Below, one piece after another: positions 21,598-38,236 of a DNA stretch of 38,236 nucleotides (position 1 is the stretch's first letter; the number at the start of each line of letters is the position of its first letter). A model generated the notes under the pieces. It saw nothing but the letters and a program-made list of their open reading frames with translations. It was not told where the DNA came from and did no database searches. The stretch comes from Smithella sp. PtaU1.Bin162 (lineage in GTDB: Bacteria > Desulfobacterota > Syntrophia > Syntrophales > Smithellaceae), in the NCBI GenBank assembly GCA_002068015.1, contig MVRV01000082.1, forward strand, positions 1 to 38,236. The letters are read 5' to 3'. The translations under genes and the position numbers were made by a program.

Positions 21598-22167
21598 TCA
21601 GGCAAAACTTTCTTCCAGTGTACCGGCATCGACGGAGCCCATGTCCTTCGAGGCGGCTTTAAAGCGTTGAATACCGGTTGATATATCCGGTACGGAAGCG
21701 GGGAAAGTAACAATACAGGAAGTCATATTGGTAAGCTTTTCTATATCACTGGATAAATAATCAAAAAAACCTCTCACCATAGCTTCTACAATACCCGCTG
21801 TTTCTAGGCCGGAACGGTTTTCTCCCGGCAGGTCAAAAGCAAATTTATTCAGCAGCATCCCGTCGATCGCAGTAATACCTTGATATGCCGCAGTGTAAAT
21901 CCGCTCGTAATTGAGTTCGGAAAGTTTACCGAGGCCGAAGAGTAGAAGCATCTCCGTACTAATGCGGCGGGGAAAAGGAATAACAGTTTTTTCCGAAAAA
22001 TCACCGTTGATCCGCCCCTGTTTCATCTCCCGGGAAATAAAACCGTTGAGTCGCCAGTCAATAAATCCGCAAATTCCGCGCGGCGGCCTTTCATCGGAAA
22101 AGACACCCAACATGAGGCATTTGTGCCCGGGAAGATCCGGCGATTCAGTCGAGAGAATTACTTGCAT
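21598..22167 (-). CDS. leucyl aminopeptidase N-terminal-domain-like protein
   Basis: 189-aa protein whose fold and motifs resemble only the N-terminal (macro-like) domain of M17 leucyl aminopeptidases: LGVFSDERPPRG, a central strand-turn and TEMLLLFGLGKLSELNYER. The metal-binding catalytic domain is absent, so no peptidase activity is expected. The start at 22167 overlaps the end of nusB by 23 bp, with AAAAGGAAA close in front; a later ATG at 22113 is an alternative. The overlap suggests translational coupling. The role is unknown, possibly nucleotide or ADP-ribose-type ligand binding by the macro-like fold (inference). Confidence 0.65.
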   Translation of the reverse strand: MQVILSTESPDLPGHKCLMLGVFSDERPPRGICGFIDWRLNGFISREMKQGRINGDFSEKTVIPFPRRISTEMLLLFGLGKLSELNYERIYTAAYQGITAIDGMLLNKFAFDLPGENRSGLETAGIVEAMVRGFFDYLSSDIEKLTNMTSCIVTFPASVPDISTGIQRFKAASKDMGSVDAGTLEESFA

Positions 22168-22576
22168 TTTCCTTTTTTAATTTCAGGTTGATGGCATCCA
22201 GGATACCGTTGATAAAAGACCCGGAATTTTCGGAACCGAAAGTTTTACCCAGATCAATAGCTTCATTTAAAGTAACTTTAGGCGGGATATCCGGACAATA
22301 AAGAAATTCAAATACCGCCAGGCGCAGGATACTGATATCAACTTTCGGCATCCGGCCAAGCGACCAATTATCCGAGCAACCGGTAATCAACGAATCCAAT
22401 TCATCCCGATGGCTCCATACGCCCTCCACCAGAGATTCGGCAAATTCTTTTGCTTCTTTTGGCGCAGCAAAATTACCCCAGAAAAGATCAAAGGCTTTCC
22501 GGACATCCAGATTTACAAAATTCAGACTGTAAAGAACCTGCAAGGCAACTTCTCTTGCCTTTCTCCGCGCGTGCAT
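22145..22576 (-). CDS. nusB: transcription antitermination factor NusB
   Basis: 143-aa NusB, the small helical factor that with NusE binds boxA RNA and supports rRNA antitermination. It shows ARRKAREVALQVLYS at the start, then SLGRMPKVDISILRLAVFE and NEAIDLGKTFGSENSGSFINGILD, all hallmark blocks. The open frame has 15 more codons upstream, but MHARRKAREV is the family start and GAGG precedes this ATG, so 22576 is chosen. It follows ribH, as is common in many bacteria (ribH-nusB). Its 3' end overlaps the next gene. Confidence 0.95.
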   Translation of the reverse strand: MHARRKAREVALQVLYSLNFVNLDVRKAFDLFWGNFAAPKEAKEFAESLVEGVWSHRDELDSLITGCSDNWSLGRMPKVDISILRLAVFEFLYCPDIPPKVTLNEAIDLGKTFGSENSGSFINGILDAINLKLKKENASNSLD

Positions 22577-32764: not shown

Positions 32765-32912
32765 AATCTGAAGATATTTTGTTCCGGATAGGACAGTTTG
32801 TAATTTAGCCTTTAATATTAAAAACCCTTACCGGTTGCTGGGGGATCGTCTAGCGGTAGGACTCAGGGCTCTGAACCCTGCTACCTAGGTTCGAATCCTG
32901 GTCCCCCAGCCA
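32764..32912 (+). repeat. duplicated segment, copy 1 (gltX end to tRNA-Gln)
   Basis: The 43 bp starting at 32764 match 35240-35282 with about 36 identities, and the 74-bp tRNA-Gln that follows is identical to that at 35335. The two copies bracket the molybdopterin enzyme gene. Confidence 0.75.
32839..32912 (+). tRNA. tRNA-Gln(CTG), copy 1
   Basis: 74-nt tRNA. Acceptor stem TGGGGGA/TCCCCCA, discriminator G and encoded CCA, T-arm with GGTTCGAATCC, anticodon stem CAGGG/CCCTG with loop CTCTGAA, anticodon CTG, hence Gln (CAG codon). The promoter elements seen at copy 2 are lacking, so it is probably read from gltX or a weak promoter. Confidence 0.95.
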
Positions 32913-32972
32913 TTTTTCCGGACGCCCGACGTCCTAATTCTTTAAAATACGATGGCGTCTGCGGAAATCATT

Positions 32973-35051
32973 CTATATCTTCCGGATTCGGCAAGGCAGG
33001 CTTTTCAGATTCGGCGTACCGAATTCTCTGCCCAGTTTTCCGATGGATGTCAGCATATTGAAATTCGACTTCCGCCATTCGTACTGATCGGCCGGATTAC
33101 CTTCGGGAAACCACCACCCCAGCGCCGCACAGATGACCCTAGGATGAACATTATCCGTTATATGGACATTCTGTACAACCTTGCCGTATTTCGTTTCGAT
33201 AGCAATTTCATCACCATCGCTTAAGGCATAGTGGGCAGCCGTTTCCGGATGCATCTCCACTCTGGGATGAGGCCGCTTTTCCCGGAGTTTATGAACCCAC
33301 CGATATGAGGAATGGAGAAAATACTGACTCTTCACACTGGTAAGCAGCAGTGGAAAATCAGGATCATCCGCTTCCGGAAAATCCGTAAACTCGGGCAATG
33401 GTTTCAGTTTGAACTTTTCGGCAGTGCTAAGTTTCAGCTCGACTTTCCCGGTGGGTGTCTTGAAACCATTTCCTTCATAGAGTTTAAACCGGTCGGGTCC
33501 TTTCAGATAACCCTTTTCCACAAACTGTTGATAAGTAAGCCCTGCCGGTTGTACAACATCGTCGAGAAATTTCTCAAAGTCATCGTACCACAATTCGGGA
33601 GGAGATATCCTTTTCCCCAGCTCATTGATGATCTTTATATCGGGCCAGCATTCTTCCGGCGGATCGACAATTTTGGGCCGGGCGACAATTATTCCGTGCC
33701 CGATTCCATAATGACCGATATCATTCATTTCATACTGATGGGCAACGGGAAAAACAATATCCGCCATGGCGGCCGTGGGCGTCATGAAAATTTCCGCAAC
33801 TGCCGTAAAGTCAAGGCTCTGGAACGCCTCGTATGTAATCTTACTGTCCGCCCACGTCATAAGAGGATTAGTGCACATGCCGTAATATCCTCTTACCGGA
33901 TAGGGAACACCTTCCAGAACAGCCTTCCGGAAATACGCCGGAGCAACCGTCATCAGCCGCGGGATAATTTTATAATGGGCACTGATCATTTCTTTGTACT
34001 TATTCGGCACAAGATCGGCCCGGACAAAAGGTCCCAGACCCATTATCTTAGGATCATGGGCATTGCAGTTGCCGCCAGGTACTTCCAGATTTCCGCAGAT
34101 TGCCATGAGACAGATAAGCGCACGGGTTGTATCAAAAGTGTTAATATTATGCTCAATGGGATTTCCCCAGGACAAAGCCGCGGGCTTTGCGTTGGCGTAC
34201 ATCCGCGCCGCTTTGCGGATCAGATCAGCGGGAACCCAGGTAATGTCGGCAACTTTTTCCGGTGTATAGGCTTTAACGTGTTGTGCGAGATCTTCAAACC
34301 CGTAGGTATATTTTTCGACAAAATCCTTGGCGTAGAGTGATTCTTCGATGATGACATTTATGAATCCCAGAGCAAGAGCCTGTGAAGTTCCCGGCCGCAC
34401 CTGCAGCCACAAGTCCGCCCGGCCGGCAAAATCGATCCTGCGGGGATCAACGACAATCAGCTTTGCTCCCTTTTTAAGCTGTTCATAAAAAATACTGGCA
34501 ATCTGCCCCTCTTCATTGGTGGACGTGGGATTGCTTGCCCACAAAAGAATCAGTTCGGTCGGATTATGCAGATCGGCCACGGGGTAAAAACCGCAGGTAT
34601 GGATACCCGTAACTTCCCGCGGGGCATGACACACATCCTGAGAAGCAATGACATTGGGGGAACCAAAAGTATTGGCCAGACGAATCTGCACAAAATGTTC
34701 CAGACCCTTAGGCATACCCACACCGAAACCGACCGCCCGGGCACCATATTTTTCCTTTATTCTGATGAGATTTTCCGCTGTTTCACCGAGCGCTTCTTCC
34801 CAGGAAATCCTTCGCCATTTTCCTTCTCCCCGCTCTCCTATACGTTTTAACGGATGCTTCAGACGATCAGGATGTGTAAGTCTATCTGCGGATACCCTCC
34901 CCTTGAAGCAGGTGTAACCTTTGTTTAAATATCCTTCAGGATTACCTTTTATCTGAACTATTTCATTATCCTGAACACCAACGAGCAGGGAACAGCCGCC
35001 ATGATCCATACGAGCACAATGTGTTTCTTTCCATTGAATATCTTTTGTCAT
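32973..35051 (-). CDS. molybdopterin (Mo/W) enzyme of DMSO reductase family, acetylene hydratase-like
   Basis: 692-aa molybdopterin enzyme. The N-terminal cluster motif keeps C12, C20 and C48, but the position of the second Cys holds Met15-Asp16 (CARMDHGGC). In acetylene hydratase the same place is Cys12-Asp13, so Asp16 may match its catalytic Asp. C141 (SQDVCHAP) aligns with the Cys that ligates tungsten in acetylene hydratase. WKRISW-like, LIVVDPRRIDFAGRADLWLQVRPGTSQAL and the C-terminal MGD-binding half (from about 560) fit the family. No twin-arginine signal, hence cytoplasmic. The ATG at 35051 has GAGGAGA in front; an ATG 11 codons upstream lacks one. No electron-transfer subunit is adjacent, as in single-subunit hydratases or transhydroxylases. 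The reaction is unknown. Confidence 0.88.
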   Translation of the reverse strand: MTKDIQWKETHCARMDHGGCSLLVGVQDNEIVQIKGNPEGYLNKGYTCFKGRVSADRLTHPDRLKHPLKRIGERGEGKWRRISWEEALGETAENLIRIKEKYGARAVGFGVGMPKGLEHFVQIRLANTFGSPNVIASQDVCHAPREVTGIHTCGFYPVADLHNPTELILLWASNPTSTNEEGQIASIFYEQLKKGAKLIVVDPRRIDFAGRADLWLQVRPGTSQALALGFINVIIEESLYAKDFVEKYTYGFEDLAQHVKAYTPEKVADITWVPADLIRKAARMYANAKPAALSWGNPIEHNINTFDTTRALICLMAICGNLEVPGGNCNAHDPKIMGLGPFVRADLVPNKYKEMISAHYKIIPRLMTVAPAYFRKAVLEGVPYPVRGYYGMCTNPLMTWADSKITYEAFQSLDFTAVAEIFMTPTAAMADIVFPVAHQYEMNDIGHYGIGHGIIVARPKIVDPPEECWPDIKIINELGKRISPPELWYDDFEKFLDDVVQPAGLTYQQFVEKGYLKGPDRFKLYEGNGFKTPTGKVELKLSTAEKFKLKPLPEFTDFPEADDPDFPLLLTSVKSQYFLHSSYRWVHKLREKRPHPRVEMHPETAAHYALSDGDEIAIETKYGKVVQNVHITDNVHPRVICAALGWWFPEGNPADQYEWRKSNFNMLTSIGKLGREFGTPNLKSLPCRIRKI

Positions 35052-35286
35052 AAAATCTCCTCTTCTCTTTTGCGGATAAAACAAGCAAATCAGTACTCAA
35101 TGTTACAATCAATATTGATAAATTAATATAACACAGGAAAATTCCGGAGACCATCTTTTTAAGAAAATAGATGCAGAGCTGTGTAATTCCAAGTGCTGAA
35201 AAACACTGTAAATCATCTTGAATGCCGACCGAAAGCAGAGAATCTGATAATATTTTGTTCCGAATATGACCGGCTGTAATTTCGTC

Positions 35287-35315
35287 TTGACTTTTAGAGC
35301 AAGATTGAATAGATA
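35287..35315 (+). promoter_or_regulatory. promoter of tRNA-Gln copy 2
   Basis: TTGACT (35287-35292), 17-bp spacer, TAGATA (35310-35315), 19 bp before the mature tRNA. Probably also drives tRNA-Glu downstream. Confidence 0.65.
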
Positions 35316-35334
35316 CTCATCCCTTACTGGTTGC

Positions 35335-35408
35335 TGGGGGATCGTCTAGCGGTAGGACTCAGGGCTCTGAACCCTGCTACCTAGGTTCGAATCCTGGTCC
35401 CCCAGCCA
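35335..35408 (+). tRNA. tRNA-Gln(CTG), copy 2
   Basis: 74 nt, identical base for base to the copy at 32839, including the encoded CCA and the CTG anticodon. It has its own promoter and is followed 88 bp later by tRNA-Glu. Confidence 0.95.
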
Positions 35409-35496: not shown

Positions 35497-35571
35497 GGTC
35501 CCATCGTCTAGCGGTTAGGACGCTGGCCTCTCACGCCGGAAACCGGGGTTCAAACCCCCGTGGGACTACCA
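35497..35571 (+). tRNA. tRNA-Glu(CTC)
   Basis: 75 nt with encoded CCA. Acceptor GGTCCCA/TGGGACT (one G-T pair), T-arm GGGGTTCAAACCCC, anticodon loop CTCTCAC with CTC anticodon, hence Glu (GAG codon). Together with gltX and tRNA-Gln this makes a Glu/Gln translation neighbourhood. The A+T-rich accessory segment begins directly after it. Confidence 0.95.
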
Positions 35572-35734
35572 AAAGAAAATCAACTAGTTAAAAGTAATAT
35601 AAGGGCTATTTTTCAATCAACAGCAAATGACTTCCAACCCTACTTCCAACCTTGAGGAATAAAATTGAGGCTTTTTATACCGATATTTGGAATTTCTGGA
35701 CACCAAAAAAACAATTGCAAAACCAACATCCGTT

Positions 35735-35785: not shown

Positions 35786-36358
35786 TTATTTACAAAGCAT
35801 ATGATCCTGAATAACCGGATCGTTAATAATTTGCCATGTCATGGCATGTATGGAATATGCAACGGCATTAGGTAATTCAAAGGTGTTTTGCGTAATAACC
35901 AAAGGAATTGTAATATTCTTTTCGGGTATTCGCACATTTACATACAAAGTAGCACTACTACCAAAACCAGCATAACCATCAATTTTCTGTAATGATATTG
36001 CGATAATTTTTTTTGAGGTTTGATCTTGAGTAAGCCTACATTGCCTAACTGCATCTTTTAGATATTCGGTTAGTTGTGCCGCTATTTCACTAGTATTTAC
36101 ATGCCACCCCGGATGGACTTTACCGGGAGCTAAAACAATATTTTCATTGGTTTTGTTTTCGTTTATTATATTAATCTGTGTGTTTGTGCAATTAGTTAAT
36201 GATTTTAAATTTGGCGGATTCGTGTTGAATGATGAGCGCAGTGTTGCCGGTTGAAGCACTTTATCAATATCAGGTTTGATATTAACTGTTTGTGGATTTG
36301 TGCATCCAAAGAAAATAAATATAAAAAATAATAGAAAACAGTTAATTGTTGTCATCAT
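35786..36358 (-). CDS. putative lipoprotein, unknown family
   Basis: 190-aa exported protein I do not recognise. A hydrophobic signal (FLLFFIFIFFGC) ends in a lipobox-like FFGC at residues about 16-19. The mature part begins with a Thr/Asn-rich linker, then a segment HPGWHVNTSEIAAQLTEYLK that matches in layout the HPGYLHSENIVFSKMVNDYIK of its neighbour, so the two are distantly related. It resembles small outer-membrane lipoproteins of the YajG kind only loosely. Codons are A+T-rich. It is second of two genes in a unit closed by the terminator at 35735-35762. Confidence 0.7.
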   Translation of the reverse strand: MMTTINCFLLFFIFIFFGCTNPQTVNIKPDIDKVLQPATLRSSFNTNPPNLKSLTNCTNTQINIINENKTNENIVLAPGKVHPGWHVNTSEIAAQLTEYLKDAVRQCRLTQDQTSKKIIAISLQKIDGYAGFGSSATLYVNVRIPEKNITIPLVITQNTFELPNAVAYSIHAMTWQIINDPVIQDHMLCK

Positions 36359-36375
36359 TCGCCCCCTTGGATTAA

Positions 36376-37011
36376 TTACAGTGAATCTATAAACTGATTT
36401 AATAAGATTATTGCTTTATTATTTGCGCTATTTATGGCCGAAGCAATTTTATATTCCTGGCTCTCATAGCCTTGATGAACATAACTTGTTCTCGTACCGG
36501 TTCCATATCCCTGAATATGGGAATCATCGGCGGAAATAGGAAATGTTTTCTTATATATTTTCCCATCTTTCAATATCTCTGTTTTTATCTCAATGTGAGC
36601 CGTAATAATTGTGGTTACTTCACCGCCACCAAGAACAGCTAAAGTCATATATCCGCCTGAATGTGGATACGTAAACTCAAGCCAAAAATCAGAAAGATTG
36701 ATTTTAATTTTATCCGGGGCTTTTGAGTCTATATCTGAAAATTTCATCTTTATATAATCATTAACCATTTTGCTAAACACTATATTTTCCGAATGTAAAT
36801 AACCGGGATGGCCGGTCATTGGTTTTTTCTCTTTGTCATATGGTGTTATACTGCCATCAATAACAGCGGAAGAATATTCAAAAGCCACTGGTAAGACAGT
36901 CTGTTTTATAAAAAGTATAATATTTTCAGAAACTTGGGATTTAATTGGAATAGCTTTTTGAACACAACCGACTATTGATAAGGCGATAAATACAATAAAT
37001 ATTTTTCCCAT
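36376..37011 (-). CDS. putative lipoprotein, paralogue of the next gene
   Basis: 211-aa exported protein. The signal IFIVFIALSIVGC ends in a canonical lipobox (SIVGC, Cys at residue 16). Residues about 65-90 carry HPGYLHSENIVFSKMVNDYIK, the block shared with the downstream gene. A beta-rich central part and an alternating Gly/Tyr segment (HIQGYGTGTRTSYVHQGYE) follow. No family recognised; an envelope role is likely from the signal alone. Seventeen bp separate it from the related gene, so both are probably one unit. Confidence 0.7.
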   Translation of the reverse strand: MGKIFIVFIALSIVGCVQKAIPIKSQVSENIILFIKQTVLPVAFEYSSAVIDGSITPYDKEKKPMTGHPGYLHSENIVFSKMVNDYIKMKFSDIDSKAPDKIKINLSDFWLEFTYPHSGGYMTLAVLGGGEVTTIITAHIEIKTEILKDGKIYKKTFPISADDSHIQGYGTGTRTSYVHQGYESQEYKIASAINSANNKAIILLNQFIDSL

Positions 37012-37261: not shown

Positions 37262-37468
37262 TTATGCCGTTGTTAAAATATCAACTTTTTCTTTGATCTC
37301 TTTCATTCTGTCTTGCGCGTCCATAATTACGGGAAGAACTTTATCTTCTACTGGGTGTTCTGATGCAATAGCGCAAAAAAGCAATTCGAGTACACCTTCA
37401 ACATGGTTAATATTGTCACTAAGCTTCTGAGAATCATCCAAAGAAAGTTTTTCTGTGTTCCTGCTCAT
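37262..37468 (-). CDS. small helical protein C of three-gene operon
   Basis: 68-aa protein. The front half LSLDDSQKLSDNINHVEG closely matches protein B (LSLDDQDKLTKDLDFVAG), continuing with a Leu-rich helix in both; the back half is an acidic/basic helix (MDAQDRMKEIKEKVDIL). Its ATG overlaps the stop of protein B by four bases. No known family recognised; no signal or membrane segment. Confidence 0.7.
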   Translation of the reverse strand: MSRNTEKLSLDDSQKLSDNINHVEGVLELLFCAIASEHPVEDKVLPVIMDAQDRMKEIKEKVDILTTA

Positions 37469-37719
37469 GCCTCCACCTCCGCTTTATTTACTAATGTATT
37501 ATTGATCAATTCTCGGGCTTCACCTAACTTTTCCCCGGCCTGAAATACGACATTTGATATAAAAGTTTTGTCCATAGATTGAGCTTCACCTGAAGACAGG
37601 CCGATATTCAGCAGATCAAGAATTCCAGCCACAAAATCCAAATCCTTAGTTAATTTGTCTTGATCATCTAAAGAGAGTAGTTCTTCTTTTTTAATTTCGT
37701 CTGAAGCATTTTTTTTCAT
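37465..37719 (-). CDS. small helical protein B of three-gene operon
   Basis: 84-aa protein, paralogue of protein C by the shared LSLDD..KL......V.G.L.LL pattern. After a Gly/Ser turn it has a second helix (ISNVVFQAGEKLGEARELINN). Its start overlaps the stop of protein A by four bases, and its stop overlaps the start of C likewise, so all three are coupled. A ribosome site GAGGTGACAAT lies ahead. No family recognised. Confidence 0.72.
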   Translation of the reverse strand: MKKNASDEIKKEELLSLDDQDKLTKDLDFVAGILDLLNIGLSSGEAQSMDKTFISNVVFQAGEKLGEARELINNTLVNKAEVEA

Positions 37720-37973
37720 ATTGTCACCTCCTCTTTTAAATCATTGAGTAAATATATTGCATCTGACAACTTCGCATCAATCTGTCCGGAAAGTTCATTA
37801 AGAATGACGTGAACGCCCTCGGCAGCTTCTAGAGGTATAGTAACGTCATCTGAATCACCTGAAAATAATGCGTCAACAGCATGGATTTTAAAACTTAGGC
37901 GCATGGTATCATTTAAAATATCCGATAGTTTCTGAAATTTCTCACTGGTTTCTTTGTATATCTCGTTTTTCAT
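37716..37973 (-). CDS. small helical protein A of three-gene operon
   Basis: 85-aa acidic helical protein, first of three overlapping small genes. Two helical segments flank a Ser/Asp-rich turn (ALFSGDSDDVT), in the same layout as B and C but with weaker similarity. GGGGG lies just ahead of the ATG at 37973. The frame extends 38 codons further to 38087, but that part coincides with a strongly folding GC-rich leader, so the shorter form is chosen. No family recognised. Confidence 0.68.
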   Translation of the reverse strand: MKNEIYKETSEKFQKLSDILNDTMRLSFKIHAVDALFSGDSDDVTIPLEAAEGVHVILNELSGQIDAKLSDAIYLLNDLKEEVTI

Positions 37974-37989
37974 TTTTCCCCCTTTCAAA

Positions 37990-38097
37990 TAAAAAACGCC
38001 TGAAGTCCTCTCACCGGCATAGGGCCAGCCCGAAACGTCACCGATCCGGGAAACTTCAAGCGTATTTATTAAAAAGTTATTAGTCATTTTCCTATGC
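37990..38097 (-). ncRNA. candidate structured 5' leader
   Basis: On the reverse strand, ACGCUUGAAGU (38063-38053) pairs with ACUUCAGGCGU (38006-37996) as an 11-bp stem with one G-U, enclosing about 46 nt and followed by U6. The enclosed part contains CCUAUGC (38023-38017), fully complementary to GCAUAGG (38097-38091) near the transcript 5' end. The GC-rich block stands out in A+T-rich surroundings. It matches no riboswitch class I can name. An upstream start at 38087 would instead translate through it. Confidence 0.45.
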
Positions 38098-38120
38098 TTT
38101 AAGATTGAGTATTAAAACGT

Positions 38121-38155
38121 GATATACAGTTATCGTTATATCTTTCTTTTGTCAA
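38121..38155 (-). promoter_or_regulatory. promoter and operator-like dyad of small-protein operon
   Basis: Reverse strand: TTGACA (38155-38150), 17-bp spacer, TAACTG (38132-38127). The dyad GATATA (38121-38126) N10 TATATC (38137-38142) overlaps the -10 region and spacer, as a repressor operator would. The implied leader is about 145 nt. Confidence 0.5.
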
Positions 38156-38201: not shown

Positions 38202-38236
38202 ATGCCACGAAAAAACCTTTCAACAAGAATCGAAAA
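38202..38236 (+). CDS. possible start of a divergent gene (cut by window end)
   Basis: ATG at 38202 opens a frame (MPRKNLSTRIE) running off the window. No ribosome site is visible in the preceding A-run. Its divergence from the small-protein operon across an operator-like dyad would suit a regulator, but the 11 visible residues allow no assignment. Confidence 0.25.
   Translation, partial: MPRKNLSTRIE

Follow-up and report, generated by a model that had tools for sequence, protein, structure and literature searches.

A conserved folded leader RNA that looks like a silencing switch of prophages and satellites

The window, the whole stretch of 38,236 nucleotides of Smithella sp. PtaU1.Bin162 analyzed here, ends with three small genes, A, B, and C, preceded by a conserved folded RNA that looks like a switch keeping such elements silent. 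On balance, it is probable that this leader represents a new RNA family with which prophages and satellites are kept silent, an RNA switch similar in its action to P4 CI or P1 C4. The evidence comprises the homology of its structure, its covariation, the complementarity of one loop to a 5′ segment, an excess of open frames, and the genomic context.

The leader RNA: distribution, fold, and loop complementarity

An earlier note, made from the letters of this DNA, had pointed to a folded leader. This leader folds better than its shuffles (z = -2.8) and possesses homologues with strong covariation (Table 1). A DNA search with the leader returns full-length copies in two relatives where the search with protein B came up empty. 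The covariance model R1, built from 5 copies, reports 29 full-length leaders in 24 out of 155 genomes of the order. The R2 model, based on an alignment of 30 matches, one of them a tandem copy in L048, adds G055, G098, and G153, giving a total of 27 out of 155 genomes with a full-length leader, the genomes surveyed being draft MAGs. With R2, copies also come up in a small number of further families of the phylum and in two IMG/VR viral contigs, and the named relatives carrying the leader are Deltaproteobacteria MAGs. Inspection showed the ~75-nt R2 matches at L073, L075, L077, and L085-L087 to be simple terminator hairpins, and they are left out of the counts; three R2 matches of similar size (G008, G017, and G023) were excluded as well. 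Pattern matches in Sphingobium and Bradyrhizobium do not fit the leader model. The leader DNA has no matches, or short chance matches only, in phages and plasmids, and Rfam 15 returns no family at gathering score. Judged from its sequence, the leader is an RNA family new to the catalogues.

The predicted fold is a three-way junction, in which the basal stem P1 encloses the hairpins P2, with a GNRA-type loop at its tip, and P3, and is followed by a U-run, with a conserved unpaired GAGA joint in the junction. In the alignment A4, 97.2% of the cells are paired and two-sided changes affect 20 out of 24 pairs (116 cells). The covariation score reaches 0.565 versus 0.218 for shuffled alignments and at most 0.098 for slid versions, and all measures exceed those of all 500 shuffles and all slid versions. 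Both P1 strands of the copy L053 are shortened in concert. In the modeled fold, P1 and the U-run together look like an intrinsic terminator.

In 37 of the 38 copies, the loop of P3 can pair with a complementary segment located 5′ of P1. This segment lies before or over the start of a short ORF, and in most copies it overlaps or shortly precedes its Shine-Dalgarno or start codon. In the window, the GCAUAGG/CCUAUGC duplex has a computed energy of -11.7 kcal/mol. The sole exception is the second tandem leader of L048, which is devoid of a segment complementary to its own loop. The tandem pair (L048:1501-2167) has small genes in between. Over a dozen compensated loop/segment types were counted from reading the listings, among them CATAGG/CCTATG, GATAGG/CCTATC, CACAGG/CCTGTG, CCATGAG/CTCATGG, CATAGAC/GTCTATG, GCTGTAGA/TCTACAGC, GTGCG/CGCAC, CTTAGGG/CCCTAAG, GCATGATC/GATCATGC, GTAGCG/CGCTAC, GGTCAC/GTGACC, and ACAGGAC/GTCCTGT; the poorest matches are those of L051 (5 nt) and L071 (a palindrome). 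The six loci first found by R2 all obey the complementarity, although R1 and R2 leave those columns unpaired. A second target sought in the 60 nt downstream of the leader gives no fit (score 12.53 versus 12.66 permuted).

An ATG-started ORF runs through the terminator stem in 26 of the 35 leaders and is absent from the other 9. The mean complementarity score is 17.66 versus a mean of 12.93 and a maximum of 14.2 for permuted loops (200 permutations, 35 copies), and of the 36 frames that have an ATG ahead of P1, 30 stay open through the terminator, versus 25 out of 69 other frames (Fisher p = 3e-6), both the permutation and the Fisher values being inflated rather than strict probabilities because the copies are related.

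Table 1. Features of the window, with coordinates on the forward strand
Feature	Position	Strand	Basis or remark
tRNA-Glu (CTC), probable integration site	35497-35571	plus	tRNA call and repeat
Attachment site, 69 nt (tRNA-Glu 3′ part and 22 nt)	35525-35593	plus	identical repeat at G000:C27:15694-15762
Gene C	37262-37468	minus	68 codons; paralogue of B; closest relative in L033
Gene B	37465-37719	minus	84 codons; predicted two-helix hairpin; paralogue of C
Gene A	37716-37973	minus	85 codons; predicted two-helix hairpin; relatives in L046 and L035
Short upstream ORF, start 38087	37716-38087	minus	123 codons; spans the whole leader, in frame with A here
Conserved structured leader RNA (models R1, R2)	37984-38102	minus	covariance models and covariation
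P1 stem 3′ strand and U-run, intrinsic-terminator-like end	37991-38008	minus	fold
P3 hairpin, loop segment CCUAUGC at 38017-38023	38014-38028	minus	fold and complementarity
P2 hairpin, GUGA (GNRA-type) tetraloop	38029-38050	minus	fold and covariation
P1 stem 5′ strand (ACGCUUGAAGUUU)	38051-38063	minus	fold and covariation
5′ segment GCAUAGG	38091-38097	minus	complementary to P3 loop CCUAUGC (38017-38023); overlaps the Shine-Dalgarno-like AGG of the short ORF
Weak dyad GATATA/TATATC, possible operator	38121-38142		6-bp arms
-35-like hexamer TTGACA	38150-38155	minus	position kept across homologues
Divergent gene start MPRKNLSTRIE...	38202-38236	plus	truncated by contig end; resembles RHH protein MTRKNISTRIDND... 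of L028

The small genes and the integrated element

The coordinates of A, B, and C agree with the three genes of 68-85 codons, overlapping by 4 nt at each junction, that the earlier note had described. The motif LSLDD..KL......V.G.L.LL is indeed shared by B and C, which are paralogues according to BLASTP (E = 2e-8 in that single comparison); BLASTP detects no similarity of A to B or to C. AlphaFold2 predicts the same two-helix hairpin for A (pLDDT 88) and B (pLDDT 78), so that the helix-turn-helix layout ascribed to A holds as a shared hairpin, but not as a DNA-binding helix-turn-helix. The A+T-rich surroundings are borne out by a GC content of 0.34-0.36 in the trio region versus about 0.46. 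As had been said, the trio matches nothing that can be named, with no curated family hit: Pfam, NCBIfam, and PADLOC return no match for A to C, and PHROGs just one weak match, for A. The PADLOC result tells against the proposed defence accessory. Protein B has no match in phages, plasmids, or viral contigs, and Foldseek with the predicted A reports nothing below E 0.001. Position and fold suggest that the trio most likely encodes small helical proteins expressed early.

A profile search of the order with B and C reports 6 genes in 5 genomes, every one in a leader operon, while phmmer finds relatives of A in the leader operons of L046 and L035. L046 carries both A-like and B/C-like genes, and its genome, G072, is the one genome besides this one in which the two kinds co-occur. 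Homologues thus exist outside this genome and do occur together in G072, the two points on which the idea of a dedicated module had been staked. The trio is nonetheless not conserved as a unit: the gene set varies, and the recurring part consists of a divergent ribbon-helix-helix (RHH) gene and the folded leader, followed by variable small genes or an integrase. Depending on the locus, helical hairpins, integrases, or a resolvase are encoded downstream of the leader.

Of 35 copies, 32 have a TTGAC-type hexamer ~47-74 nt ahead of the point where the leader begins. The operator dyad claimed over the promoter does not stand out: it has 6-bp arms only, shares a stretch of 177 nt with seven other pairs of this kind, and is expected of such A+T-rich DNA. 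A divergent RHH-like gene is present at 27 of the 28 loci outside the window (ORF listing read by eye), and a Pfam scan of these 27 proteins reports RHH_1 in 16 and Antitox_RHH in 13 (E <= 0.01). The divergent gene probably encodes a repressor. The rest of the window's RHH gene was sought elsewhere in its own genome and not found. In one viral contig with a leader, a HicA/HicB-like pair adjoins the divergent RHH gene (L108:11397-12262).

The tRNA gene noticed near the trio, a tRNA-Glu separated from the end of C by 1.7 kb and two ORFs, turns out to be the attachment site of the element. Its repeat on contig C27 of the same genome precedes a phage integrase gene, ~0.2 kb away, and genes of the Fic and HNH kinds; the genome thus contains the attachment-site repeat and integrase by which a prophage or satellite is recognized. 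In the genus relatives G002 and G003, gltX, tRNA-Gln, and tRNA-Glu are consecutive. The repeat beside the C27 integrase and this gltX/tRNA row place the trio at the end of an integrated element, the middle of which is on unplaced contigs. As read from these sequences, the window region is one end of a phage-like element (prophage or satellite) integrated in tRNA-Glu, and the trio heads an operon of this element. Such a location supports the suggested phage or ICE function of the trio, as do its homologues in operons linked to leaders elsewhere. The two ORFs between the trio and tRNA-Glu (35786-37011) are lipoprotein-like, as is an ORF lying past the leader of the G006 element. At 32839-35408, a molybdopterin oxidoreductase gene (32973-35084) has a 74-nt tRNA-Gln gene on either side, the two being identical; compared with the row in G002 and G003, this arrangement resembles a duplication or insertion in its own right.

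Integrase, capsid, or primase genes occur near leader copies elsewhere. L095 combines an integrase, primase-type genes, a terminase small subunit, an HK97-type capsid, and the leader operon within about 11 kb, and L090 encodes a tape measure and a capsid. The gene content of L095, from integrase to HK97-type capsid, resembles that of a PICI-type satellite; in contrast, other leader copies are in phage-like contigs or beside integrases only, and the window's element is split over contigs. Repeats resembling tRNA-Glu, 15-21 kb apart, occur at G001:C53:168608-168699 and 184163-184208, and at G003:C50:704-768 and 22162-22227, and possibly mark other elements using this site; the stretches read there contain no leader.

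A putative RNA switch and its alternatives

In its anatomy, as deduced from the sequence, the leader corresponds to an attenuator coupled to translation, with a loop complementary to the RNA's own 5′ segment. The RHH gene and the operon would be transcribed apart from a shared control region, the operon transcript opening with the structured leader. The 5′ segment would serve as the ribosome-binding site of the short ORF, and the remainder would form the three-way junction, with P1 and the U-run as the terminator. Ribosomes on the short ORF would traverse the stem, allowing RNA polymerase to read on into A, B, and C, or into an integrase elsewhere. Pairing of the P3 loop with the ribosome-binding site would instead block translation, let the terminator form, and turn the operon off. 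Such pairing may occur in cis, as a pseudoknot, or in trans, the leader RNA of a resident element acting on a newcomer. We infer that the leader controls termination and translation, and that it may act in trans.

Two phage systems invite comparison. The loops of the P1/P7 C4 RNA target a ribosome-binding region within the same transcript, and kil translation prevents termination in P4. Like the C4 antisense RNA (RF01695), the leader is a structured phage RNA, but it has no RF01695 match at any threshold used. It shares with P4 CI the setting in a phage-satellite leader transcript, an RNA element complementary to an upstream segment, a predicted control by premature termination, and an ORF whose translation would cross the terminator (26 of 35 leaders here, an early ORF in P4). 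In P4, the CI RNA pairs with seqA and seqC, which results in termination of the operon (PMC4825925). Unlike in P4, the RNA includes the stem within itself, and this stem resembles an intrinsic terminator; the 60 nt tested downstream hold no seqC-like site, and the hosts, the genes, the divergent RHH gene, and the lack of an Rfam match all differ. As far as the tests reach, the leader would work like P4 CI; with nothing resembling seqC detected, and with trans action inferred, it is not classed as a member of the P4 CI type. The int-alpA RNA (RF02996) is similarly laid out, with a basal stem around two hairpins and then U's, but belongs to a distinct sequence family and displays no clear ribosome-binding-site complementarity (one copy checked). 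The G006 element has such an RNA at L007:2918-2984, following its leader at a distance of 1.3 kb, and thus carries two similarly laid-out structured RNAs.

It is possible, at a lower level of confidence than the switch itself, that the leaders are self-targeting immunity RNAs, a single leader being terminator, antisense RNA, and target, and the loop/ribosome-binding-site pair an exchangeable specificity code deciding which Deltaproteobacteria phages and satellites exclude each other. Leaders with compatible loops share one genome in G001, G151, and G139, and mutual exclusion is therefore not evident. This co-residence favors an attenuator acting in cis only, in which the loop of P3 pairs with the ribosome-binding site of the same molecule as a pseudoknot, with neither trans RNA nor immunity; all covariation data are compatible with it, and the pseudoknot alone would account for the covariation. 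Pairing in cis, however, need not diversify, yet more than twelve kinds of loop exist, reminiscent of specificity types, and P4 provides a precedent for trans action (PMC4825925), which makes the cis-only attenuator somewhat unlikely.

The remaining explanations look beyond the loop pairing. The gene overlaps, the paralogy of B and C, the hairpin folds, and the small-gene sets also found in L035 and L046 would suit a dedicated hetero-oligomer of A, B, and C, or else a toxin or defence module, to which the leader is incidental; since the small-gene set changes between elements while RHH and leader stay constant, and PADLOC gives no match, this is improbable. Least plausible is a riboswitch, in which the junction with its GNRA-type loop would bind a small molecule and control the terminator: the compact junction, the conserved GAGA joint, and the terminator stem would fit, but the neighbors are mobile-element genes devoid of a metabolic theme, the variable loop is matched to the ribosome-binding site, and no Rfam riboswitch matches.

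RNA control of the P4 CI or P1 C4 kind is known mainly from enterobacterial phages. In bacteria of another group, a structured leader that comes in many loop types would make immunity specificity testable by simple swaps. The leader would also offer a sequence handle for spotting prophages and satellites in metagenomes, and would account for the many small uncharacterized genes behind it.
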